From positions 1 to 47,247 of the forward strand of contig JAKSYS010000502.1 of assembly GCA_022925895.1 (NCBI GenBank): a DNA stretch of 47,247 bases, written 5' to 3'. The translations under genes and the position numbers were made by a program. The notes beneath the pieces are model-generated. The model ran no database searches. It was not told the origin of the DNA and saw only the letters and a program-made list of their open reading frames with translations. Below are positions 1,085 through 37,894 of the stretch, piece by piece (the stretch's first letter is position 1; every line of letters starts with the position of its first letter). Source of the DNA: Fragilaria crotonensis. Its lineage: Eukaryota > Bacillariophyta > Fragilariophyceae > Fragilariales > Fragilariaceae.

Positions 1085-3321
1085 CTAATCACCTAAATTT
1101 GAAGATTGGGATTGAGAGTCCCATTGTTTTGTCTTTCGGAGTCTATTTATAATCTCCGTCACACTTGTTTGAGGGCCATAGACATTGTAGATCATGTCTA
1201 TGGCCCGTTGCGAACTGTGTCCCAAGCTCACAAGGTTGCGAATCACATCCCAGATCACCTTCCGCCTCGAGTACTTATACTTCACCTGCCCTCGCTCAGT
1301 TTTGGAGAAAAGCCTTGCAGGCTTTCCCCGACCGATGTAGATACTCATTCCACAAGTCGTAAAGACTTCGTGGATTCGGCATGAGGGTTGCGGATTCGTC
1401 ATCGCGAGGGCAGGCCGAGCAAGCACGTTCGAGCCTCGGCACCCTGATCGTCAGCACCAGCAGCTGCAGCAGCAATTGCAGCTGCAGTAGCTGCCGTTGC
1501 TGCTGCAGTTGCTGCTGCCCCGGTGGTCTTGGCACACGGCGCGCTGGCTGCAGTGCAGCCCTCCTGACATTTCCATTCTTGATTATGTGGAATCGTTCCA
1601 TCGCTTGCAGTATTCCAGCAATATCGTTTCGAATTTCAACGTTCTCGCGTCGAAGACTCAAAAACCGCTTTGCAACTGAAGCATCCAGTTTTGAAGTTGG
1701 TCGCCACTCGCTTGATTGTTCTGTAGAAGTCTCTGGTTCAGTCTTCGCATGCTCGGCCCTTGTAGAAAATTGATTGTCTTGCCTGCAGGTTCTCCATTTC
1801 ATTCTCCGCTCCCACAGCATCACCTTCGATACTTGTTGTTGGAATCTCATCAATGAAGACTGTACCTTGATTGCCGCTCACTAAAACTGGCACCTTCGAA
1901 ATCGGATTCTGACCTTCGGCAATAACAATTCCCGTTTCCGACAATTCCCTCTTCACTCGATCTCGGTCTCCTGTTGAAATGAAATCAGAAGCAACACTCG
2001 AAAACACAAGCCAAAGCACAGCCTTACCCAGCACAATTGCTGTCAAATCCGGAAGTCGTCGCCGAATGTTAAGAACGACTTTGTTAGAATAAATGTTGTC
2101 ATGACATTCGAGTTGCAAATTGAATTATTGATCAAGTAGCAAGCTCCGCCCATACACAGTTTCTCCGCCACCTTGCAATCTGGATAGGGCAGTTCAACAT
2201 CGTCGTATCGATCGGAAACCGTCCCTCCCTTTCCAACGGCCTCTCGTGTCCTTGTAGTCCTTGGAGATTCCGCATCGACGAACATGAGTGGAAGCGAACT
2301 TGCGAATAGAGTGACTTCCAAGAAGACCTCCGGACCGGAACTCCTCCATTCGCAATACTTTCTGACCGAATATATTCTGTGCAGTTTCCTTGGCTTTGAG
2401 CCCGCCACCAGGTACTGTGACATCATCAGAGAATGCAAAAACGTAAGGCGAGGCCATCGCCGTCGCATTCGATCTCAAGTTGAATTCAAGCCACAAACCC
2501 AAACTGATGAATACGCAGAAAATTGGGTTCATACTCCCAAGCACAATCTGCCACGGTGCATCCCTTTCATCCTGTACATTCTTACTCCAGTTTAACCTTG
2601 TTTTCAATGCATTCTCAAAATTGTCGTGAACACGAATGTGGTCCATCACGACCTGTGTAGTATCATCAATTCTGGCAATCATGTGAAACTGAAAGTTGAT
2701 AAGCGCGGGCATTCCAAGCTTCCAAATCCCTGAACTATGAGAACCACCAAATGTCTTGAAAACTTCATGCAAACGTCGAAACTCCCTTTCCTCCATTGGA
2801 CGCCGCGTCTTCGATTCTGCTCATTGTTTCCTCGCTTCCAGCTTCCTAAGATACTTAACAAAATCGTTCACTTCGGCACACTTCGTAGGATTTCCATCAT
2901 TTGAACCTGTTCTCCAACCATGCAAACGATCTGGCATATAGAATGAAATAGCTTTTTTCCAAAAGGCAACAGTGTTAGCACGTACCAAGGGTCAAATCGC
3001 CAACTGTGGCCCGGGGTCAGGAACTCCAAACGTTCTTATGTTCAACCATCGCATCAGTTCTTCTGGGGTCACCTGCCTCTTCTCGTTGTCAGTATACACT
3101 CGCCCATAGTCATATTGCTCCCCTGGACCCAACCGATGGACGCTCGACATCAAACTGTCCAAGATTCGCTTGTAAACCTTCTGACCTCTCATGGTGATCC
3201 GTGTCTTGAATGGTGTCAAAAAATAACAAGAAATCATGCATTCGATATCAACAATCATGTTGTTCTTTTCTGGTACACATTCTACGATTCTACGTGAGAT
3301 GCCAGGTTGCATCCGAAGCAA
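1085..3321 (-). pseudogene. Crypton-type tyrosine recombinase, degenerate mobile element
   Basis: Reading leftward from 3321, five fragments line up into one protein. The N-terminal part ends with EELMRWLNIRTFGVPDPGP. After an in-frame TGA at 2992 comes PLVRANTVAFWKKAISFYMP and GNPTKCAEVNDFVKYLRK. A second in-frame TGA lies near 2824. The recombinase core (2194-2796) has LGSHSIRKFASTHVRR, a His-x-x-Arg box, and a RGRW block. After a frameshift come SDRYDDVELPYPDCKVAEKL, which may hold the nucleophilic Tyr, and LTAIVLGKAVLWLVFSSVAS. The C-terminus (1085-1560) reads GRGKPARLFSKTERGQ, KYKYSRRKVIWDVI and SVTEIINRLRK, resembling the GCR1_C-like DNA-binding domain of Cryptons. Cryptons move with a tyrosine recombinase and lack terminal inverted repeats; I see none here. 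At least two stops and three frameshifts make it inactive. Confidence 0.8.
1451..1519. repeat. CAG/CTG-rich triplet tract inside the Crypton remnant
   Basis: Imperfect CAG/CTG triplets. On the minus strand they encode a Gln/Leu-rich linker between the recombinase core and the C-terminal DNA-binding region of the Crypton remnant. The tract is imperfect, with GTA and GTT interruptions. Confidence 0.75.
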
Positions 3322-8930: not shown

Positions 8931-9408
8931 TTACGCTAGTAGATGTTGCCTGACCGATACTAAGTTTTACGAGACGCTCCACGCAAATCTAAAATACCCC
9001 TTTAAGGACAGCAGTATTCTCACACGCAATTCCTACTGAATCCAATGGTAATTTAGATGATTCGGTAACGCTGTGGGTACTCAAAAATGGTGCAGAAATG
9101 TTACTTCTGCCTTAAGTAGAACGTTACTCGCAGGACATGTCTTCAGTGGTATTTTGAAAACCTCCGGGTTGGGAGCACAAACCAACAACAACATTCGACA
9201 ACGACGATCACGTATTCTGAATGTATGGAGACACAAGTTCCTTGTCGGTTTTGAAGCTTGGTGGCTCTGTTTGATCCTGGTGTTGCTTGCCGCCACATCT
9301 AGGACACTACCACCAGGTTCCATGGTGTCCTTAGTTTCTGGGCATTTTGAGTGCGTCTGACACCAAGGATCTCGATACGGGCATTCAAAAACCTTGCTTT
9401 GAGGAAGA

Positions 9409-10075
9409 TGAAGTTTTACGCAGTAACGAGCAAACAATCTGAGTCGACAGAAAGTGAAGGGATGTTCGTTCGCCGAGATACAACTAGAAATTCTCAAATC
9501 AGACGAGAATTGATTGAGTTGTGGTCAAATATCTGGCAAGAGGTAGAGTCCGGATGCCGCATTGTGAGGGTGCGAGGAAGATGGAATTTTTACGCAGCCA
9601 ACGAGCAAACAATCTGAGTCGACAGAAAGTGAAGAGGTGTTTGACCGGCCGTGACACAACTCGAAATTCTCAAATCAGACAAGAATTGATTAAGTTCTGG
9701 TCCAATATGCAGCAAGAGATGGAGTCCGGATGCCGCGTTGTGATGATGTGACAAGAAAATGGAATTTTTAGGCAAACAACTTGCAAACAATCTGAATCGA
9801 CAGACATTGGAAGGATTTTCAATCGGTTGCAACACAATTCGAAATTCTAGAATCAGACAATAATTGATTGAGTTGTGGGCCAATATATGGCGACCAAGCA
9901 GAGTCCCGATGCCGCATTGTGATGGTGCAAGATGTACATTTAATTTTGAAGCAAAAGACGAGCGAACAATCTGAGTATACAGAAAGTTGCGACACTTTTT
10001 GTTGAACTTGGATCATTTTGAAATTCTTAAATTGAACGAGAATTGATTGAGTTGTGGTCTTATATGTAATGATGT
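9409..10075. repeat. Tandem repeat, ~177-bp unit, about 4 copies
   Basis: The block AACAATCTGAG(T/A) recurs at about 9436, 9611, 9789 and 9968, giving periods of 175, 178 and 179 bp. Each unit also repeats AATTCTCAAATCAGACGAG, GAATTGATTGAGTTGTGG and GAGTCCGGATGCCGC. Copies diverge from left to right and the last is truncated. Short frames in it drift with the indels, so I read it as non-coding satellite-like DNA. Confidence 0.85.
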
Positions 10076-24192: not shown

Positions 24193-24574
24193 GATAATTA
24201 TGTGAGGATGTATTCGATGAGCCGCTCAATTGACCTTCCTTTAGGACGATTGCACCTTCATGCTGGACATGTACATTTGATTGTATGTGTGATTTGTGAT
24301 ATGTGATATGGGATATGGGATAGTGGATACATGAGTACAACTAGCATGTACCGGGACCTGCATGCGCCTACGAGGCTACGAGTCCTTCATTATCATAGTT
24401 GGGTACAGTACGCGGTCATCCTGTTCCCGCTCGTGACTAAACTGTGCCTCCGCGTCTTTAATGCGTTTTTGGTTTAAGAACTTTAAACTTTAAACCCAGA
24501 CCCACCGTCCACCGTACATCATACATGCATACGAGTACAGTACATTTAATAATATATATACTCCTACTAGGATC
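24193..24574. other. Intergenic, low complexity
   Basis: Upstream region of the glycosyltransferase. TGTGATATG repeats occur at 24290-24320 and GTAC motifs beyond. Holds no gene that I can support. Confidence 0.5.
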
Positions 24575-24649
24575 CGATTAGAATGCAAGGAAATGACGTC
24601 AAGCCGTACCAATCGGGTCCGATTAGGTTTCACCAATTTGACGTCAGCA
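24575..24649 (+). repeat. Left terminal inverted repeat, two blocks
   Basis: The outer block of 28 bases begins CGATTAGAATGCAAGG and the inner block of 32 bases begins TCCGATTAGGTTTCACC. They are separated by 15 unrelated bases. Each block contains one TGACGTCA octamer (24594-24601 and 24639-24646). Confidence 0.88.
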
Positions 24650-24902
24650 TTTTTTAGCACTTTAGTTGTGGAATTTAACTTGCACGGAATCTTTCTCTTT
24701 GACTTTATCACCGCCCTCTTTTCAAACCAACTCTTGTGCAAAACTACGTTCTAGATAAGGAACATAAATCTGCTCCACATTTGTTTGAATAGAAATAAAA
24801 ATGATCGTGTCTAGATGTGTATAAAACATGGTACCAGTAGTGGATTTGAGTTTACTCGCACAAAACTCATCATTTTGATATTTTACGACCACGATGGTAT
24901 GG

Positions 24903-25030
24903 CACTTTGTCTCCCTGTCATTATTGTTTCTCTTGTTGTTCTTGCTCTCCTTGCTGCTTTTGTTTCTCTTGTTGCCCTTGTTCTGTTTTCGCTCTTGTTT
25001 GCTCTCTATCTGTTGTCATTTTGCTTGCAT
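24903..25030 (+). other. Purine-poor TTGTTCTTGCT tract inside the left end
   Basis: About 125 bases almost without A, built from CTTGTTGTT and TTTGTTTCTCTTG motifs, just upstream of the transposase frame. In one frame it would encode a run of Val/Leu/Ala, but this follows from the base bias. It is most simply a transcribed leader or a splice-type polypyrimidine tract. Confidence 0.5.
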
Positions 25031-25113
25031 TACTATAGCAACCACCTACCGATTAATTTGTTGCCAACCCCATGTTTCGGTCTCTTTAGGATCATCCACA
25101 ACAAGAAGTACCA

Positions 25114-28100
25114 TTGATGCAGGATCCCCATGCTGTGGACCAGACTCTATCTGCTCTCAAGGCTATGTCATGGACTGCTTCTTTGCCTTTCAAAGGTCAT
25201 TTTTGTCATGCAACCGATGATTTCAATGCATCATTGGAAACGGAGTACGACCTCTTTCAGTACACTACCTCCATGTACAAGGGTTCCAAGCATATTATTC
25301 GGTTCAGTCCATCTCTTTATCCCATCAATGGTGGATTTGAAAGGATTCAGGAGGCCATAGTCTTATCACTGACTTACTCCAAGCTGCCAAATCTGTTGGG
25401 AATTGTGCCCTTGTTTCCAATGGTTATGGTTTGTTCCCAACCAATGTCACAGATGTACTACTGACTGACCAACGCGTATTGAAATGCAGTAATTTCCGCC
25501 AGTATTCATCAGAAGAAGGAGGAATGTCCTGCACACGAACCAAAGTACTGGAACCGATTCTTATCGTGTTACCACCTACACTGGTGATAAGAAGAATGCC
25601 CGTGGGTGCAAGAGTTCTGGCATCGGATTGAAACGTCGCAATTCAACTCTACGTGGTAACTCCTGCACTTGTCGTGTCAAATTCACACTCGAATTGACCA
25701 TAATAGCTTTTCCTTGTTTGCGGAATTGGAAACAATCAGCACACTGGCCATCCTCCTCTTCTTTCCAATGAAATAAGGAATCGTAAACGCTTTCTTGACA
25801 TTACAACCCTGGAAACTGTTGCTGCAATGAGTGTTGCCAACATCCAGCCTGCCCAAGCGGCTCTGTTTACTAAAACCCGTACGGGTCAGATTTTTACTCG
25901 TGGTCAGATGGCATATGTGCAAGGATTTACAAAAATGGCAAAAGACTTCATGGCTTCCCCAAATGTTCATGCTACCACAACAGCATCAGTCTTCACCCTG
26001 TGAGAATATGTTGAGTTACTTACAAAAAGTGGTGCCTCGTATGTCTGTCTGTATCATCATGGCAAATCAAAAGAACTACGTGGTAACAGTGTAAAGGCTG
26101 CACGTACTGAAGCCATTCCTCATGATTTATCAGGTGAACTAACCAGCCTTTCTGTTATCCCAACTGATGATGACACTGATGACACTTCACCTATTCACGA
26201 GAAGCCAGTACCTCTGGAGGTGGCAGAGACATCCACTTTTAAGAAATATGCTTTGGAAAGCAGACTTGCGGTTGGTGCAAGGGAAGACCAGGATATACTC
26301 ATTGCCTGTTGTTGGGTTTTACCAGAAGGCAGGCGCCTGTTCCACGCTTTTCCTGAAGTTGTATGCGTTGACGGCACTCATGAGACGAACAATGAAAGCA
26401 GACCATTGCTGACACTCTCTGTGAAAGATTCAAATGGAAAGGTGACTGTGGTTGTTAGGTGCATTGCCCCGAATGAACGATCTTGGTTCTTCCGTTGGCT
26501 ATTCCAAGAAGCCATTCCTGTTCTTCTTGGTGCACAATCACTACATGCTGTGAAACTTATCATGACTGACGGTGATTCCCAAGAAATGACACAAGTTGAC
26601 TATGCCATCTCCACACATTTTGCAATGCGTACTCGATGTGGGTGGCACCTTGTTGATCAAGGCTGGCGACGAAATTGTAAAGGCTTGGGTTATCGGAGAG
26701 GCAAGGATGATGCCGCCAAGAGGCAGGTAAGAGTAATAAAAACCTGGATCTACAGCTGGATGCGCCGAGGATACTTTTCCAAGACGAGTACGAAATGTGA
26801 GTACACCTACATGTTTATTCTGTGTGTTATCTGTGATACCATTTTTCTAAAAGAATCGTCAACATCAAAGAAGTTACGCCCTTTTACATATGTACTTGAA
26901 ATCAGACACTATTAAGGCAATTTTTGGGGAGGACGGTGGAGAAAAGATATTGCACTTTATCCGCAATTACATAATTCCACAAGAGCAGAGTTATTGCTTT
27001 TATCTGAGGAAGGGGGTGAGACACTTCGAGACCAACACAAATTCTGGGCACGAAGGTACAAATAATGCTATCAAAGCTGGTCCTTCCTGTGTGCTTCCAC
27101 AGCATGGTGTTGACAAATCTGTCAAAATTCAAGTTGACACCGATTCCAACAAATTTGACCTATACCAACGATATATGGCTAGTGCCCTGTTTGGAAGAGC
27201 AACCTGGAGTAACTCTCCCACCGTCAATGATGTCACCCTTCCTGCAGAGTTCATGTTGAAATTCGCTCTTGATCAATGCGAGAGCTATGCTTCTTGGAGA
27301 GCAAGCCCTTTCAAATGGCTTGTTGTTCGGTCAGTTGACCGTGATGTCCATTCTTTGATTCCATGCTTCCACAGAGTGTACACTGTCACCTCACAAGACT
27401 TTGACAACAGGGTTTGTCTGATGTGTGACTGCAACTACTACGAATGCAATGGTGTCATCTGCCCACACATGATGCATGTGAAGAAGTATTATGCAAGCAA
27501 TCCAAACATCAGTCACCACGACATTTCAGTACGTTGGTGGAAATCATATATTTATTTCTCAATGAAGAAGGAGAGTGATTGCTCACTAACTGAGAAAGAG
27601 ATAAAGCAGAAGCTGGAATCAATACGTGAGAATGATTGCAAAGGCCCAAACTTTATTCCAAAGAATGACGATCATACTTTCTCTCCATTCCATCGTGTCT
27701 ACAAGTGTGGGAAGAATTCAAATGAGCAATTCAGAAATGCCACTGAAAGTACCATTGACTCCCTTTTCAAAAACCCTCAAAACTGGACAGTGTCGTAAAC
27801 TACACCAGGGATGAGGTTGAGATTGCCCTGAAGAATGCCAAAAATACTGTTCCCGTATCAATGTCGCAAGAGATCCACTTGCCTGAGGAACCACTCATCG
27901 ACGCTGGTCATGAAACTGAGCACACGAATACTCATCTTGACGACAATGACGACATCCTCATGGAATCTACGAGTTTAGAAACTGACTGCATTGATTTTGG
28001 ATCACGTGCTCTTCACCATGAAGACGTATCCGAATTGGAACGTTACAATGCGTACGACAGCATTATGCCAAGAGCAAAGGAACTAGTTAGTCTTGTTGAT

Positions 28101-28271
28101 GCCTCAAAAGCCCACAAGAGAGGTCTTCTTGTTGAGGAGGCACTCGACAAGATTATCTTCACCGAGAAAGCCAACATGGCTTCTGAGAAACCACCACCCA
28201 AAGGGTCCCTAGTTTCGGGGTGTCCTGTTGGCAAGGTGTGCAAAACATATGTCTCATCATGGAGTTTTTAA
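25114..28271 (+). pseudogene. MULE-type transposase (DDE + SWIM zinc finger), degenerate
   Basis: The transposase of the giant element. The frame opens at 25114, shifts near 25360, 25550 and 25700, has an in-frame TGA near 26001, an intron-like GTGAGT segment near 26799-26858, and a last shift near 27785. Readable blocks: a zinc-binding N-part (RNSTLRGNSCTCRVKFTLEL), the first catalytic Asp in EVVCVDGTHETNNE, the second in KLIMTDGDSQEM, the MULE Cys/His turn TRCGWHLVDQGW, a likely third acidic residue in NSGHEGTNNAIK, and a SWIM finger CLMCDCNYYECNGVICPHMM. The tail (27800-28271) is acidic. MULE enzymes cut at the TIRs and reinsert the element. This copy carries at least four frameshifts and a stop, so movement would need a relative elsewhere. 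Confidence 0.8.
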
Positions 28272-28345
28272 AAGTAGTACATTTAGAATTAATAACAATG
28301 TTGACTTAGACTTTCGTTCTTGTTCGACATCATGACTAGGATGGG

Positions 28346-29362
28346 GACTATTTGGTGATCGAAATTCGATCTTCAAATAGTCATCACAGTACGAGTATCA
28401 CAAGTACAGTACGAAGGTGACTATTTGGTGATCGAAATTCGATCTTCAAATAGTCATCACAGTACGAGTATCACCAGTACAGTACAATGGCGACTATTTG
28501 GTGATCGAAATTCGATCTTCAAATAGTCGTCACAGTACGAGTATCACCAGTACAGTACAATGGCGACTATTTGGTGATCGAAATTCGATCTTCAAATAGT
28601 CATCACAGTACAAGTACCACCAGTACAGTACGCGGTGACTATTTGGTGATCGAAATTCGATCTTCAAATAGTCGTCACAGTCTGATATCACCAGTACAGT
28701 ACAATGGCGACTATTTGGTGATCGAAATTCGATCTTCAAATAGTCGTCACATCGAGTATCACCAGTACAGTACAATGGCGACTATTTGGTGATCGTAATT
28801 CGATCTTCAAATAGTCGTCACAGTCGATATCACCAGTACAGTACAATGGCGACTATTTGGTGATCGAAATTCGATCTTCAAATAGTCATCACAGTACGAG
28901 TACCACCAGTACAGTAACGGTGACTATTTGGTGATCGAAATTCGATCTTCAAATAGTCGTCACAGTCGAGTATCACCAGTACAGTACAATGGCGACTATT
29001 TGGTGATCGAAATTCGATCTTCAAATAGTCGTCACAGTCTGATATCACCAGTACAGTACAATGGCGACTATTTGGTGATCGAAATTCGATCTTCAAATAG
29101 TCGTCACAGTACAGTATCACCAGTACAGTACAATGGCGACTATTTGGTGATCGAAATTCGATCTTCAAATAGTCGTCACAGTCGAGTATCACCAGTACAG
29201 TACGAAGGTGACTATTTGGTGATCAAATTCGATCTTCAAATAGTCATCACAGTACAGTACCACCAGTACAGTACAATGGCGACTATTTGGTGATCGAAAT
29301 TCGATCTTCAAATAGTCGTCACAGTACGAGTATCACCAGTACAGTACGACGGCGACTATTTG
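28346..29362 (-). repeat. Array 1: 14 copies plus a fragment of a 71-73-bp palindromic unit
   Basis: Units begin at 28346, 28419, 28492, 28565, 28637, 28709, 28780, 28851, 28922, 28994, 29066, 29138, 29210 and 29281, with a nine-base fragment at 29354. Each holds a 37-bp near-palindrome with arms GACTATTTG and CAAATAGTC around GATCGAA/TTCGATC, then a ~36-bp GTAC-rich spacer conserved between units. Compared with arrays 2 and 3 it lies in the opposite orientation. Confidence 0.95.
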
Positions 29363-30720
29363 GTATTATTGTTTCCTCCAACAACTGCTGTCTTCAGGTA
29401 TAACGACACACAAAACACATCTTTCTCTTGATATTGCAATGTGCGGGATGTCAAACAGTGCTGATACAATGGATTGAAAAGTAACATATCTCCCGGCCTC
29501 AGTGCCACGGCAACCTTGTTCTGCAAATGCAAAGTAGTTCGTTACGTCGGCATCCAATCGGTATTTATCAAACCGACCCGGTTGCAATCCATGTTGCGAA
29601 ATAATGGTTGTCAAGGAATAGAAAAAATCCTCATCGGTATGCGAATTCAAACAATAGTTTTGCCACAGGCAAGACTACCTAAATTGGTTCAGATGGCATA
29701 CCTACCATACTTGGCCAATCGGCAAACCATTGGGCACTACGGAGTCCTCGAAGATCATTCCCTGGAATGAATCCTTTTGCAACTTCATGACACCTCTTCA
29801 TTAAGTCACGGATTTGTGTCTTGCTCCAGTCACTTAATGTTTTCGGCCAAGACTCGATAATACCAGTTGAACCACGGTTTGGCTTTAACCCAACAGTGGT
29901 GTATTTGCCATTATCTTCCGCAACAGGTACTCGTTTAATTCCACGCACTTCTGCTTTGGATTCTGCATCCTCAAGTGCATGAAGTGCCTCGATGGTTTGG
30001 TTAACCCTTGTAAGTTTTTCAACAACATACGGACGTGGGATCAAAGTGAATACGTTATCCCCACTCGGTAAAATCAAACGGGCACCAGACATAGTGTCAA
30101 TGACTTTAAGATCATTGATTGCAAACAGCATGTGCGCATCACCTATGCATTTGCGAAGTCTCGTTGAGTTTTCCATATCGGCTCCACTATAGAATAATGG
30201 TTTACAACTGTTCTGCAACAGTGTTTTGCCCAGTGAATGCTCATGGGACGACGAAACTTGCATCAAACTATCTAGCCTTTTCTTCTTCAAATAATTGCGC
30301 TTCATAAACACTCTTTGGCTTGCCATTTTCTATTGCCTTCTTGTATGCTTCCTGCGTCGTGATGCTTGACTTTTTCCTTGATTTATATACATGTTGAAAA
30401 CCTCGTTTTCCAGTCTTGCCAATGTTCTCACTTGTGGTATCATTCTGTACAACCGTACTCCTCATCATGCTTTTTGTGACGTCAAGGTTGGAACTGCTGT
30501 TACTGTGCCCCGAGTCACAGATAACAGTGACCTGTTTTGACGTCCTCATGATGGTTTCCTCGTTGCTACATTTGCATTCCACAACCGTACTCCTCATCAT
30601 GCTTTTTGTGACGTCAAGGTTGGAACTGCTGTTACTGTGCCCCGAGTCACAGATAACAGTGACCTGTTTTGACGTCCTCATGATGGTTTCCAAGTTGCTT
30701 CTGCCGTTTGATAACCATTC
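29356..30720 (-). pseudogene. Putative 2-oxoglutarate/Fe(II) oxygenase, transposon-borne, frameshifted
   Basis: Reads leftward from about 30720. The front part has a recent 44-residue duplication and a Lys-rich middle. The long frame 29679-30326 has TGIIESWPKTLSDWSKTQIR and CHEVAKGFIPGNDLRGLRSA. After a break near 29660 comes QNYCLNSHTDEDFFYSLTTI, whose His-Thr-Asp fits the HxD iron site. After a break near 29500 comes LRPGDMLLFNPLYQHCLTSR, with the distal iron His, a candidate 2OG-binding Arg and the PGDxLxF turn of the double-stranded beta-helix. About 60 residues separate HxD from the distal His, which is normal for the fold. Substrate unknown. TET/JBP-like oxidation of DNA bases is one option, since such enzymes are known inside other transposons. 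The stop at 29356-29358 lies inside repeat array 1. Confidence 0.6.
30451..30691 (-). repeat. 132-bp in-frame tandem duplication in the oxygenase 5' region
   Basis: About 109 bases starting AACCGTACTCCTCATCATGC at 30451 recur from 30583. The offset of 132 bases is 44 codons, so the protein repeats QVTVICDSGHSNSSSNLDVT without a frame change. No mismatch is seen between the copies, so the duplication is recent. Each copy has one TGACGTCA (30477-30484 and 30609-30616). Confidence 0.9.
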
Positions 30721-30845
30721 GCAACAGCGTTGGGCAAGGGAATCGAAGGAGGAAAAATGTGATCAGAGTTTATACTTTCTGTCACGTCGCATGTGTCAGA
30801 AGTACGTCAGTGCTCAAGGGCGACATCACTCAGAACACTCGTCAA

Positions 30846-32060
30846 AGAACAAAATTCGTACACCAAATAGTCGTCATCGTACTGTCATACTGTTACTTGT
30901 TCATTCGTGACTATTTGAAGAACAAAATTCGTACACCAAATAGTCGTCATCGTACTGTCATAGTGTTACTTGTTCATTCGTGACTATTTGAAGATCGAAA
31001 TTCGTACACCAAATAGTCGTCATCGTACTGACATACTGTTACTTGTCCATTCGTGACTATTTGAAGATCGAAATTCGTACACCAAATAGTCGTCATCGTA
31101 CTGACATACTGTTACTTGTCCATTTGAGACTATTTGAAGATCGAAATCGTACACCAAATAGTCGTCTTCGTACCGTCATACTGTTACTTGTCCATTCGTG
31201 ACTATTTGAAGATCAAAATTGTACACCAAATAGTCGTCATCGTACTGTCATACTGTTACTTGTCCATTCGACTATTTGAAGATCGAAATTCGTACACCAA
31301 ATAGTCGTCATCGTACTGACATACTGTTACTTGTCCATTCGTGACTATTTGAAGATCAAAATTCGTACACCAAATAGTCGTCTTCGTACTGACATACTGT
31401 TACTTGTCCATTCGCGACTATTTGAAGATCGAAATTCGTACACCAAATAGTCGTCTTCGTACCGTCATACTGTTACTTGTCCATTCGTGACTATTTGAAG
31501 ATCAAAATTCGTACACCAAATAGTCGTCATCGTACCGTCATACTGTTACTTGTCCATTCGCGACTATTTGAAGATCGAAATTCGTACACCAAATAGTCGT
31601 CATCGTACTGACATACTGTTACTTGTCCATTCGTGACTATTTGAAGATCAAAATTCGTACACCAAATAGTCGTCTTCGTACTGACATACTGTTACTTGTC
31701 CATTCGCGACTATTTGAAGATCGAAATTCGTACACCAAATAGTCGTCATCGTACTGACATACTGTTACTTGTCCATTCGTGACTATTTGAAGATCGAAAT
31801 TACACCAAATAGTCGTCATCGTACTGACATACTGTTACTTGTCCATTCGTGACTATTTGAAGATCAAAATTCGTACACCAAATAGTCGTCTTCGTACCGT
31901 CATACTGTTACTTGTCCATTCGCGACTATTTGAAGATCGAAATTCGTACACCAAATAGTCGTCTTCGTACCGTCATACTGTTACTTGTCCATTCGTGACT
32001 ATTTGAAGATCGAAATTACGGGTTACTTCGTCTAAGAAGACTATTTGAAGATCAGAATCT
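30846..32060 (+). repeat. Array 2: about 18 copies of the ~73-bp palindromic unit
   Basis: Full units start at 30909, 30982, 31055, 31128, 31200, 31270, 31343, 31416, 31489, 31562, 31635, 31708, 31781, 31851, 31924 and 31997. A half unit lies on the left and a worn short unit at 32039. The core is 37 bp with arms GACTATTTG and CAAATAGTC; the spacer is about 36 bp, CATACTGTTACTTGTCCATT-like. It sits between the 5' ends of the oxygenase (-) and cargo (+) genes. Confidence 0.95.
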
Positions 32061-32153
32061 GTACACAATTAGTGCAATCGACACTGTGAGCATCTGCACC
32101 TGATTTGTATATGTTGAAGGTCGTCAAGTCTTAAACAACTCATCTCCCTCAGT

Positions 32154-35100
32154 ATGCCCCCGAAGACAAAGAGCGCGCCGAAGGCAACCAGTACGCATGA
32201 CGATGATCCATTTGACGGATGTGAACCCCCAGTAATGAAGACGATGATTGAGATGATGAAATGGCACCACCGCATTCCACGTGATCAATTACCAACGTTC
32301 CTACAGGAATATCGTATTCTTCACTTTGTTGGAAGAGAAGATGAATACAATGCGAGTGATACTGTTTATGAATTGTATCATGTTATATTCGACGACCATT
32401 CAGATCGGAAGTCACTGTCATCTTGCCTTGGTAAGGGCGAGACACTTAGTATATGGGAAAAGGAGAAACCCACTGCTATATGCGCTATAACGTTTGTACA
32501 ACGAGAGAACGCTGTTTTGGTTCTTTTTTTGGCAACAAAGGTTGACTATCAGGCCAACGGAATGGCAACTTTTTTGCTTTCGATTATGCATCAAGTTGTA
32601 AGGTGTAGGGTGGGTGTTGATGAAGTAAATGTTTATTTGAAAGCAAATCCGACCGCGAACAAAGTGGCATGGGGTTATTATTCAAGACGCAACTTTGCCG
32701 AAATGGCTGAAGGGACTGAAGCATTTCCTAAAGTTTTGAGAGACTGTTTTGTCAATGAGGTTGATGATAGTCCACTCAAGGACTATCTCGGATTCAGCAA
32801 CGATTTGAAGTGGTTGACGATTTGCCTTACACGTGAATATTTTGCCTTCCCACAAGAATCCAGAAACCAGATAGTATTGAAAAGGTTGTTCAACAATCCC
32901 AATGACAACACCATTGATTGTCCATCCGTGTATGCCTTCTTCCCGGAAACTTAACATACGAAGAGGCAACATTTTGTACACCAACTTATGATTGTTACTC
33001 GGGTGAATTTTGGGATGACAAGGCCTTCCATCCGAAGAACTCGATAATGGAAAAATACCTATTCCAAGGTCCAAGTGCTCGTCTGACTTGGATAGATCGT
33101 TGCCTTACGCGCAAAGGTGACGCTCTTTCTCCAGACTTTGTGGACATTGCTCTGGGATGGCTGCAGCGGTATTGTAAAGCTGAAATTTGGTCGACCCTGA
33201 CCATCATTCCTTGTAAGATCATGACTGAGGTGTCAACAATGGAGAGCCTTTTTACATCCTTCATTGAAGGACGGAACGTTGCATCTTCGGTTCGCGACCT
33301 AAAAACCGATACAGAGAGAAGACAGTTTGTAAACCACATCTTTCATTACGAGATTGACCAAAAGAGGTTTATGGAGGCAACAATTCTGGTGGTGGAGTTC
33401 ATTATACAACACAAGGATCTCCTCACGAAGCCGTTTATTGTCATTCCTGCACAAGAGGATGAAGATTGTTCATGGACTGTTTTCGTAGCGGTGAATTGTG
33501 GAAAAACTGGGAACAATGATAACGATACAAAATGTGGATATTTTTTGTTTGATCCAACTGGAAAACGTCGCCGTTCTGACCCACCGCCAATTTGCCGGTT
33601 CTTCCTCAAATTGGTGCACTTCATACTCAGTCCTGAGAATGATCCAAATGCAAAAGCACGAAAACCAAAGAAGAAAAGAAAAGAAAGCTCACCATGGAAA
33701 GACAAGGTTGTTGCACCATGGTTTTTCAACATGCATTCGTTTTACGTCGGTTTCACACGGCAAAGCGTTAATTTTGGTTGTGTCGTCACTGACAAGAACA
33801 ATGAGACATGTGACATCGAGAAGGGGCGCTTCCGACCGTTGAGTTTACCGCCAGATTACATTCTAATTCAGGAAACGTCAAAGGATGTGGCGCAAAGTGG
33901 TTTAAAATCATTGATTTTCATCCGCGATTTTTGTGTCATGGTGCACGACGTCACATTCGACACGAGTGGGAATGTGAAAGGTGACATCACTTTTGACAGG
34001 AATGACAATGTCAAGGGCATGGGCAGGAACATTCCCACATCAACACGAAAATTTGCTCACTATTTGCATGACGTGTACGTGAGCTTGTTTCAACTGATTG
34101 ACAGAATAGCAAGCAGCAACTTTGGGTCGGTTCGAGAAGAAGCTCATGAGTACAAAAAATATCTTCGTCCCAGCAAGGGGATAGAACGGTCGCTTTCGTT
34201 GGGGGGGAAACTAACGATGCCCGGACCACGACATGCGTTTCCTGATTTAGCCAAGATATTGCAGTGGCAACCTTTGTCGAAAGAAAGAGTGTTGCTTGGC
34301 AGGGAAACAGATTTGTGCCAGATGAATAATGATGATGTAGCGAAGCGGTTGCGAAAGACTTCGCGAAAGCCTCGACAAACAAAGAAAAAAGGGAAGACGG
34401 ATAGTGGTGAAGAGCAGTCGGGTGGTCTAGGCCAGCGAAAGCAGGATGATCCATCGTTGACGAAGTCGCCAGCACGAAAGGGTGAAGCAGAGGCAGTACA
34501 GGAACAAGATCATACATCACCAGAAAAGATTCAAGACACCGAAAAGATGCCTGATGGAGCACATACGACCACGGCGCTCTCGCAGGGAAGTGAATTTGTG
34601 CCATTGTCTATACAGCATATTGCTACATTTATTTCAAGTTTAAAGAAGGACTTCGAATATGCTGCATCAGAAGATGAGAAGAAGAATCTGTGTTGGCAAA
34701 TCCTTGCTCTTTCACACGAGAAGTCTCCATTGCCATTTGTCGAAAATGCGTTGAAGTTTATACGCGATAATTTTGAAAAGGAAAATGAAAGTGTTTCGAT
34801 AATCGCCAAACCTGGGAAAAAGGATGTACTGTGTGGGAAGGGGCACCGCAAATGCATTCCGTACCTTGATCGCACATTGGACTTCAAGAAAATGCACTTG
34901 TCAGCAGCTAATCAGGCAGAAAAATATGAGGTGCAGCGTACCATTTACACAACTCTAAAAAAGGAGGGATTTCGTTTCCTCGAGATGACAGAAAAAAAAG
35001 GGTGGAAGGAAAAAACATACGATGGTGGAATGGCGTATATTAGATCGCGAATGAAACGTGTGTGTGAAAAAGAAGAGGGCATGACGCCGTCAATAAATGA

Positions 35101-35803
35101 ATTGGAGGCCGGACCAGGTCCATTTGAAAGTACATCTCTACCGCCAAATGGTATTGTAGTACGTAAACGCGATGAACCAAAGGGACATCCACCAAACATG
35201 GCTTTCCGTCGGATAATCCGAAGAGCTGCAGATGCCACGTTTGAAAGTCGAACAGAAAGCGCTAAGGACAATATTGCAGGTGAAGTGCTAGAGGAGATGC
35301 GGAAAAAAGGTTACATCTTTGTCAATAAAGAGGAAAACGTTTGGAAAGGTGTCAACACAGAAAAAGTAAGGAAAGAGGTTCGGGATCGTCTAAGGAAATC
35401 AGTGTACTTTGGGAAACAAAGTACGGTGACGGAAAGAAAAGCTGGTGACGACAATGATGCTGGCATTGAATGCAAGCAACCTTCAAAACAGCGGATGACA
35501 GGAAGTTTGAAAGCTGGTGAGAAGGATGATGCTTGTATTGAATGCAATAAGCCTTCAAAAGAGCGGATGACAGGAAGTAAGAAAGCTGGTGACGAGGATG
35601 ATGCTTGTATTGAATGCAATAAGCCTTCAAAGCACTCGTGTCGGAAATGTAAGAAGCATGTATGTTCCATGTGTTGCAATGAAAAGAGAAAGCTCGAAAA
35701 CACTTGGTGGTGCAACGTGTGTTTCAATAGACAAAGTGTTTGGAAGCAAACATTAATTCGGGACGGCAATTACAGTACTTCGGATGAAGAATGCAAGAAA
35801 TGA
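32154..35803 (+). CDS. Large multidomain transposon cargo protein (one frameshift)
   Basis: Two overlapping frames (32154-32954 and 32918-35803) become one protein of ~1,215 residues if one T is restored near 32951. Part 1 (~1-266) has a GNAT-like pattern: AVLVLFLATKVDYQANGMA then YYSRRNF. The middle has IVIPAQEDEDCSWTVFVAVN, CGYFLFDPTG and FTRQSVNFGCVV, reminiscent of Ulp1/C48 proteases common in MULE elements. The usual catalytic His is not evident, so this is tentative. A Lys-rich linker leads to DVLCGKGHRKCIPYLD and KKEGFRFLEMT, matching the DUF6824-type domain of diatom proteins. A second weaker copy lies near residue 770 of the long frame. The tail has three repeats of CIECNKPSK-type units and a Cys-rich finger (CRKCKKHVCSMCC, CNVCF). 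Mostly open, unlike the transposase. Confidence 0.65.
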
Positions 35804-35835
35804 GTTCATCGTAGTCGTACATGCTGTATGTAGTA

Positions 35836-36519
35836 GCCTATTTGAAGGTCAAAATTTGTACACCAAATAGTCGTCTTCTTACTGTCATAGTGTTACTTGT
35901 TCATTCGTGACTATTTGAAGAACAAAATTCGTACACCAAATAGTCGTCATCGTACTGTCATAGTGTTACTTGTTCATTCGTGACTATTTGAAGATCGAAA
36001 TTCGTACACCATATAGTCGTCATCGTACTGTCATACTGTTACTTGTTCATTCGTGACTATTTGAAGATCGAAATTCGTACACCAAATAGTCGTCTTCTTA
36101 CTGTCATACTGTTACTTGTCCATTCGCGACTATTTGAAGATCGAAATTTGTACACCAAATAGTCGCATCGTACTGACATACTGTTACTTGTTCATTCGTG
36201 ACTATTTGAAGATCGAAATTCGTACACCAAATAGTCGTCTTCTTACTGGCATACTGTTACTTGTCCATTCGCGACTATTTGAAGATCGAAATTTGTACAC
36301 CAAATAGTCGCATCGTACTGACATACTGTTACTTGTTCATTCGTGACTATTTGAAGATCGAAATCGTACACCAAATAGTCGTCTTCTTACTGGCATACTG
36401 TTACTTGTTCATTCGTGACTATTTGAAGATCGAAATTCGTACACAAAATAGTCGTCATCATACTGACACACTGTTACTTGTCCATTCGAGACTATTTGAA
36501 GATCGAAATTCGTACAGAA
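35836..36519 (+). repeat. Array 3: about 10 copies of the ~73-bp palindromic unit
   Basis: Units begin near 35836 (worn), 35909, 35982, 36055, 36128, 36200, 36273, 36345, 36417 and 36490 (truncated). Same orientation and unit type as array 2. It starts 33 bp behind the stop of the cargo gene and runs to 320 bp from the right TIR. Confidence 0.95.
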
Positions 36520-36836
36520 AGAAAGTTCTGTTGGTGTTGATTAAGAAGAAAAGTGTACTTGTATTCAAGGAGATTTGCAACCCTACTAGGTTGTAATCGA
36601 ATACAAAGTAATGTAAGTTCGAGTGATTCAAAACAAGGGAAACACATGAATCACTGATAGAAGGAGATATGTAGCAGTTATCTTTCTGGCATGACAAAGG
36701 GTTGACATGCGCGTTAGGAAAAGCGCCGACAGAAGTCAACAACAAAGATTCCGTGTTTTGTCAGCCATTCAAATTTCCGATGTCTTCAAAAATCTTCTAC
36801 AGGAGGACTCACTGTAGTTTATTACTGTGACGTGGG
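36520..36836. other. Unique segment between array 3 and right TIR
   Basis: AT-rich sequence without a supported gene. A CCTACTAGG motif at 36583-36591 also occurs at the left border of the element (about 24563). Confidence 0.4.
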
Positions 36837-36980
36837 TGCTGACGTCAAATTGGTGAAACCTAATCGGATCTCTCTCAATATGTTACTGTCTTACTGGAGT
36901 ACTGTATCACCGTAGGCAGCACGTGAAAGGGTCAGTACTGTGACGTCATGCTTTGACGTCATTTCCTTGCATTCTAATCG
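36837..36980 (-). repeat. Right terminal inverted repeat, two blocks with a longer insert
   Basis: Inner 32-base block at 36837-36868 and outer 28-base block at 36953-36980, identical to the left ones on the opposite strand. Here 84 bases separate them instead of 15. TGACGTCA octamers lie at 36840-36847, 36941-36948 and 36954-36961. Confidence 0.88.
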
Positions 36981-36985
36981 AAACC

Positions 36986-37894
36986 AGGAGGTTCCGGAAG
37001 TCTGGCTTTTCTACCGTATCGTACATTTGTCTACACAAATTCTGTACGTGCGATTCCTTCAAAACAAAAGCTAAATAAATCCACGTCTGATATAAATCGG
37101 AACGGTGAGCTCATGATCCTTTTTAATTAACAACAAGCACTTGTATGTGTGAACTTAAGTAATGGTAGCGGAAATGACTTCTTTGACGACGGTTAAAATA
37201 AGGTGGTTAAATTACTTAGTAAGGATATGTCCAAAAGCCTTTGGCTCCAGAAGCCATTGGCTTAAGCCAGTGGCTTCTGAAAGTCATTGGCTTAAGCCAA
37301 TGGCTTCTGGAAGTCAATGGCTTAAGCCAATGGCTTCGCCGAGCTAATCAAGGAACGTGTTTTATTCCTATGGGAACTCGTTATAAAGGAAACGAGACAT
37401 AATGAGGGGTCATCGTCAAATGCGTACCATATATTCAAGTCTATAAGTTCGTCATGACACTGTCTATTTGAAGATGAAAAGCCTGAAGTAAGACCTTTGA
37501 TGACGAGCTTCCAATAATATTAAAACGTGTGTTTTTCAGTTTGGCTTCGCCGACTATAGCGTGGAAGCCATTGGCTTCCAGAAGCCTTTGGCTTAAGCCA
37601 ATGACTTCCAGAAGCCTTTGTCTTAAGCCATTGGCTTCTGGAAGCCAATGGCTTTTATCCCTAAGTAGTTCCAAGAACAATGCGTTGATTTCACGTTCGC
37701 AGTTCGCACACGTCGTTTCGATGCAATTTACTTAAGACTCTCGACATCACGTTTGGTAATTTAGAAATAATCCCGACATTCGAAATCGGTGCAAGGGGGG
37801 ATAATTTATCCGGATCCGTTCGAAATGGAATACGATAGTATGCGTAGCCGCCAGTATTGCGTACGGCAAACAAGCCAAACTTCCGGAACCTCCA
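36986..37894. mobile_element. MITE-like ~0.9-kb palindromic insertion
   Basis: The right-hand flank of the giant element starts with GGAGGTTCCGGAAGT and a TGGCTT block (about 36987-37007). The inverse, AAGCCAAACTTCCGGAACC, lies at about 37872-37890. Between these inverted ends are two clusters of AGCCATTGGCTTAAGCC-type palindromes, 37237-37345 and 37545-37660, pointing toward each other and both bordered by GGCTTCGCCGA. No coding frame. The architecture resembles a non-autonomous element with subterminal repeats; a target-site duplication is not obvious. Confidence 0.5.

Follow-up and report, generated by a model that had tools for sequence, protein, structure and literature searches.

How does a giant DNA transposon enter its target when it carries a transposase of the Mutator-like element (MULE) type and its copies show no target-site duplication? 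Duplication of this kind is usually taken as a hallmark of DDE transposition. The question is raised by a 12,257-bp element at positions 24615..36871 (plus strand) of the window that we analysed, which is one entire contig (C451, 47,247 bp; JAKSYS010000502.1) of assembly GCA_022925895.1 of the freshwater diatom Fragilaria crotonensis (62.1 Mb in 881 contigs; C-numbers below denote contigs). The element holds a MULE-type transposase gene, a gene for a predicted TET/JBP-like dioxygenase, a long third gene and three repeat arrays. It belongs to a family that is real, young, multicopy and structurally defined. We think it likely that this family is an autonomous DNA transposon that usually replaces ~6 bp of its target, in which the TET-like gene has an anti-silencing role, the third gene is accessory and the arrays act in cis.

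The ends were defined from 10 whole copies and 15 further end pairs. An inverted-repeat search, together with the comparison of copies, gives a left terminal inverted repeat (TIR) at 24615..24649 (plus strand), which starts GGGTCCGATTAGG, and a right TIR at 36837..36871 (minus strand), which ends CCTAATCGGATCT. At ~34 bp they are short for a MULE, where TIRs are typically long. The window holds two perfect inverted blocks, an inner one of 32 bp (24618-24649/36837-36868, E 4e-10) and an outer one of 28 bp (24575-24602/36953-36980, E 5e-8). An initial annotation of this DNA had reported inverted ends 12.4 kb apart; perfect blocks do lie ~12.3-12.4 kb apart, but the element ends were put at 24575 and 36980 and the true ones are 24615 and 36871. 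When each end was searched against the genome, nearly all other copies matched only within 24605-24615 and 36870-36873, the exceptions being single loci extended by a few chance bases, and the flanks of the giant-element copies differ from copy to copy. The inner block is the terminal repeat because the other copies match only inside those limits. The outer block was rejected as an end, since it is absent from other copies and belongs to a short element whose left and right parts (24570..24614 and 36872..36985, both plus strand) contain the respective outer blocks. Uninterrupted copies of this short element (loci L086-L088; contigs C160, C309 and C120) are ~160 bp long and many other copies exist in the genome; judged by this comparison, the giant element is inserted into the short one. 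On C388, a 10.5-kb sister element has the outer block as its own terminal repeat, and the flanks of this sister likewise show no target duplication.

When <=2 mismatches are allowed, the left end's initial 20 bases are matched at 173 places in the genome, and the reversed control at 0. Ten further copies of 11.9-13.0 kb, of the kind that the initial annotation had proposed to look for, were read whole; they share the TIRs, all three genes and all three arrays. Over a 3.7-kb transposase segment nine of the ten have 0-3 substitutions relative to the window (22 in C878), and the family is for this reason regarded as young. The differences are nearly all gaps (17-37 gap positions per copy over the same segment), which look like the marks of an unpolished assembly and break frames differently from copy to copy. 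Long frames are kept for the TET-like gene (420 codons in C105) and for the third gene (first part, 579 codons in C183; last part, 961 codons in the window). There are also shorter derivatives, e.g. on C6, C25 and C40, with 2.4-2.9 kb between ends, that retain both ends and array units; in short derivatives the right terminus CCTAATCGGATCT is replaced by GGATCC. The contigs C35 and C175 share the same element end and the same left flank, so some contigs apparently overlap or represent alleles, and the number of copies may be overestimated.

The transposase gene (approximately 25090..28271, plus strand) was outlined with the help of the frames of C304 and C105. It is broken by indels and probably has a short intron near 26798, the limits and the intron being placed by eye. 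Pfam matches MULE (1.9e-13 in the C105 copy, 2.2e-11 in the window) and ZSWIM RNaseH-like (9e-14 in the C105 copy); no other transposase model gave a match at E up to 5. Where a DDE and SWIM transposase had been annotated, the MULE domain is thus borne out by Pfam, and the SWIM part is a CxC...CxH stretch seen by eye near 27425-27475, Pfam giving no SWIM match. Assignment to KDZ, for which an 8-bp duplication is expected, was tried and rejected: no such duplication was found, and there is no KDZ model among the transposase matches at that threshold.

What happens at the target can be read from junctions at the true ends. Duplications of 8-11 bp, which the initial annotation expected, are present at 0 of 26 copies; the longest repeats within 2 bases of the junctions are 6 bp (C460) and 5 bp (C418). 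The transposase is of the MULE type but the duplication is missing, and the element is therefore not filed as a canonical MULE. It might nevertheless be one whose duplications were erased by mutation or rearrangement, as its transposase is MULE-type and a survey of MULEs gives their duplications as 8-11 bp (PMC6446971). We find this exceedingly improbable: the copies are too young, with 0-3 substitutions per 3.7 kb in nine of ten, yet none of the 26 is flanked by a duplication, and bases have been lost at the sites that have an empty counterpart.

These empty sites were obtained by searching the joined flanks of the 26 copies against the genome, in rounds of 15 and 21 copies (10 common) with 40 candidates scored in each. 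Uninterrupted counterparts, which the initial annotation had suggested looking for, were found for 10 of the 26 copies and reveal a target loss of ~6 bp that it had missed. Exactly 6 bp of target are missing at the junction in five of the ten (C304, C150, C451, C851 and C416), and C342 lacks a net 6 bp, with one mismatch; a loss of 6-7 bp is seen at 8 of the 10 testable sites. No clear target motif was found at the insertion sites. Could the 6 bp be an excision footprint, insertion being traceless and the 'empty' sites being vacated ones? One site makes a footprint conceivable, since C418 and its empty site on C602 (L083) differ by two changed junction bases and no net loss. The counterparts of C451 and C416, on the other hand, are members of dispersed repeat families, in which the 6 bp are kept in 3/3 and 4/4 members read (one of them with a base change within the 6 bp), and at these two sites the loss therefore came with the insertion. 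Hit lengths suggest likewise for most other sites, with some further diverged members, beyond those read, varying somewhat in length. An origin by excision is on this evidence very unlikely.

In the young family all 11 large copies share TIRs, gene order and the three arrays. To follow the gene order further, gene-association loci were typed by hand, with rows collapsed to 55 TET-like, 57 MULE and 22 third-gene loci from 110, 110 and 58 match rows, respectively; one search scored 102 of 130 candidates, and there are possible duplicates among the loci (two on C57; C12:2156 with C841). The locus on C130 carries the ends of the young family and is counted there, which reduces the diverged TET-like loci from 37 to 36. 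Of these 36, 14 have a MULE gene no more than 8 kb away, in every case convergent, and 6 have a third gene at up to the same distance, in every case divergent; with random placement the expectation is ~1.5% for each locus, which amounts to 0.5 MULE neighbours. The gene plan is old because these convergent and divergent pairs recur outside the young family. At the diverged loci the transposase shows protein identities of ~31 to 73% and the third gene of 26 to 40%; on C388 and C860 the complete set of three genes is present in the same order as in the window. The view of the initial annotation that the ordered plan marks a defined family thus holds for all 11 large copies and for diverged subfamilies, but not for the direction of the TET-like gene, which is reversed at some young-family loci discussed below.

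The oxygenase-like gene of the initial annotation is present on the minus strand (matched part 29359..30411, the N-terminal part extending upstream), and its likeness to TET/JBP had gone unnoticed. Structure prediction gives a double-stranded beta-helix fold of the TET kind, and by this predicted fold the product would be a TET/JBP-like dioxygenase. The HxD...H metal triad is invariant in 48/48 aligned relatives, 11 of which match Tet_JBP (PF12851) weakly at E up to 1 (best 0.0013). A Pfam Tet_JBP search of this genome gave no match, and was uninformative in that 14 control genomes gave none either. Relatives were sought in viral contigs (14 and 5 pattern-matching stretches) and in prokaryote genomes (200 stretches), and 0 were confirmed in either. 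One relative, P0080, is filed under a Comamonadaceae metagenome assembly, probably because eukaryotic DNA was placed in a bacterial bin. In the window, a 132-bp tandem duplication (30449-30699, 98% alike) lies in the part of the gene that encodes the N-terminus.

The third gene, also seen initially, lies in two frames at 32154..35803 (plus strand). It has a weak GNAT-like match, two DUF6824 stretches, a FYVE-like zinc finger below the cut-off and a Ulp1-like stretch recognized by eye that lacks the usual His. A database query with it returned 2 relatives, and a comparison of its protein with PDB sequences gave one weak unrelated match (E 1.8). Inside the gene a 72-bp repeat of 2.7 units (35438-35631) encodes a repeated cysteine-containing motif; a comparable repeat of ~3 units is found in 7 of the 11 large copies.

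The arrays of 72-73-bp units reported in the gaps between genes are confirmed. Array A (28341-29364, ~14 units of 72 bp) lies where the transposase and TET-like genes face each other with their 3' ends, array B (30845-32017, ~16 units of 73 bp) lies where the TET-like gene and the third gene face each other with their 5' ends, and array C (35838-36516) has ~9 units of 73 bp. All 11 large copies have three arrays in the same gaps, with units of 66-73 bp and unit counts of 6.2-19.2 for A, 9.2-24.2 for B and 9.3-10.3 for C (array A of C150 was reported as overlapping rows). The units contain an inverted pair, GACTATTTG...CAAATAGTC, and arrays A and B are inversely related, being ~75% complementary. 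A 23-base core of the array occurs 422 times in the genome; among 100 of these places listed, all are, by our own reading, within spans marked by element ends. The sister element on C388 carries, close to its right end, an array whose 52-bp unit is unrelated but also contains inverted GCCGCC/GGCGGC arms (by eye).

Taken together, these features suggest a mechanism in which the MULE-type DDE transposase would recognize the ~34-bp TIRs and move both the 12-kb element and the short derivatives that keep ends and array units. On integration ~6 bp of target would usually be replaced and no duplication made. This could come about if the two strand transfers were offset by 6 nt with a polarity opposite to that of usual DDE enzymes, which would leave 3' target flaps whose trimming produces the 6-bp loss; alternatively, the stagger may be normal and the target overhangs trimmed. 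The TET/JBP-like dioxygenase would probably oxidize methylated bases on element DNA and so allow escape from silencing; TET action on element methylation has been proposed for fungal TET-carrying transposons (PMC12730594). Cytosine methyltransferase (PF00145) has 13 matches in the assembly, the best of them on C869, a contig that also holds element copies. The third gene would have an accessory part, and its product might be a nuclear acetyltransferase or a protease-like protein. The arrays are probably cis-acting, as protein-binding or boundary sites, and the keeping of array units in short derivatives suggests such a role. A bolder proposal, about which our belief is evenly divided, is that a diatom lineage of MULE type removes a fixed 6 bp of target on integration, a mirror image of what duplication does, has long carried the TET-like and third genes as its core, and can perhaps flip the dioxygenase gene between arrays.

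A number of observations count against these proposals. Sixteen of the 26 copies have no empty site. Among those that do, C437b and C40 lack 7 bp, with a separate 1-bp indel near each, C335 has ~5 bp of target replaced by 7, C418 is irregular as described above, and other small indels relative to the counterparts lie near C304, C150 and C342. The 7-bp and irregular cases (C437b, C40, C335 and C418) are what one might see if the deletions were noise from host end-joining at insertion breaks, with no length set by the transposase, but resection should scatter more than five clean sites at exactly 6 bp and one at a net 6, and we hold this explanation to be unlikely. The indels that are frequent throughout the assembly leave the majority of reading frames broken among the large copies compared. 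The gene plan is also incomplete in places: at 18 of the 36 diverged TET-like loci the scored rows include neither a MULE gene nor a third gene, which may have diverged too far, been lost or never been present. The standard TET-MULE orientation is found at 14 of 19 loci of the young family, and at the other five the TET-like gene or fragment is reversed (C93, C305, C130 and fragments on C63 and C418). On C93, C63, C418 and C130 it shares a strand with the MULE gene; C305 has no MULE match, and there the TET-like gene shares a strand with the third gene. The TET-like segment would be flipped by recombination of array A with the inverse array B, and misassembly is a possible cause as well.

The same caution applies to gene identities. 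Alone, the TET-like protein of the element has no Pfam match, its profile has no match among PDB sequences, and the lone protein finds only weak unrelated PDB sequences there (E 0.76 and above). The 2-oxoglutarate-binding Arg is presumably to be expected in an RxS motif after the distal His, and that position holds C, S or V in the aligned TET-like proteins; R326 (44/48 relatives) or R308 (48/48) could stand in for it. We consider it unlikely that the gene product is a 2OG-Fe(II) oxygenase of the AlkB or hydroxylase kind, acting on some other substrate, and not a DNA-cytosine oxidase. As for the third gene, its suggested functions derive from weak matches and its structure model is poor (pLDDT 41).

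Several known systems share part of this picture. Kaonashi-type MULEs carry Ulp1-like genes, make 8-11-bp duplications and are not known to have a TET-like gene; they are alike in combining a MULE transposase with a protease-like gene, the Ulp1 likeness being here by eye only. Spy-type elements have a Harbinger-related transposase and insert tracelessly, and are alike as TIR transposons that make no duplication; unlike them, the present element loses target. Duplications of 0 bp occur in the Harbinger group and of 8 bp in Zisupton (PMC12730594). In fungi, ten named lineages of DNA transposons carry TET/JBP (Kojima 2025, PMC12730594). They likewise have the dioxygenase beside the transposase, sometimes a third gene, and a conserved gene order, but in the portion of that account used here MULE is not among the lineages, target duplications are made and the hosts are fungal (PMC12730594). 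The MULE-Diatoms (group 37) share a diatom host and a SWIM-type MULE transposase, and their 'No TSD' entry agrees with the absence of duplication here; they differ in that the listed TIRs are 123-124 bp, with one ORF and no extra genes, and the excerpted description, which is the sole basis of this comparison, makes no mention of target deletion (PMC6446971). Giant DNA transposons of Ectocarpus are also >10 kb, have accessory genes and live in a stramenopile, and in Sola1-1 a DNA-modifying enzyme lies on the strand opposite the transposase; unlike the present element, they have KDZ, EnSpm and Sola-1 transposases, and the enzyme is a DNA methyltransferase and not a dioxygenase (PMC12477816). 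In the open-licence literature searched by full text, mostly at the level of titles and abstract starts, we saw neither a MULE with a TET gene nor a DNA transposon with a fixed target deletion.

A near-constant 6-bp loss in a young multicopy family opens a different geometry of integration to direct tests, and elements of this sort would be overlooked by annotation based on duplications. If the proposed roles are correct, TET-carrying transposons would no longer be confined to fungi but would include a diatom element with a transposase of another class, a natural example of a transposon that may alter DNA methylation and thereby evade silencing.

The remainder of the window has further features of its own. 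Adjoining the short element is a span with imperfect inverted ends (36987-37893; ends 36987-37018/37862-37893) that contains inverted arrays of a AAGCCATTGGCTT unit at 37230-37337 and 37564-37654, and is probably a different small transposon, judging from this layout. An open reading frame at 2197-2796 (minus strand) has, by eye, a tyrosine-recombinase-like HxxR stretch, and a Pfam search with it gave no match. Finally, a tandem repeat at 9401-9987 consists of 3.3 units of 178 bp that are 77% alike.
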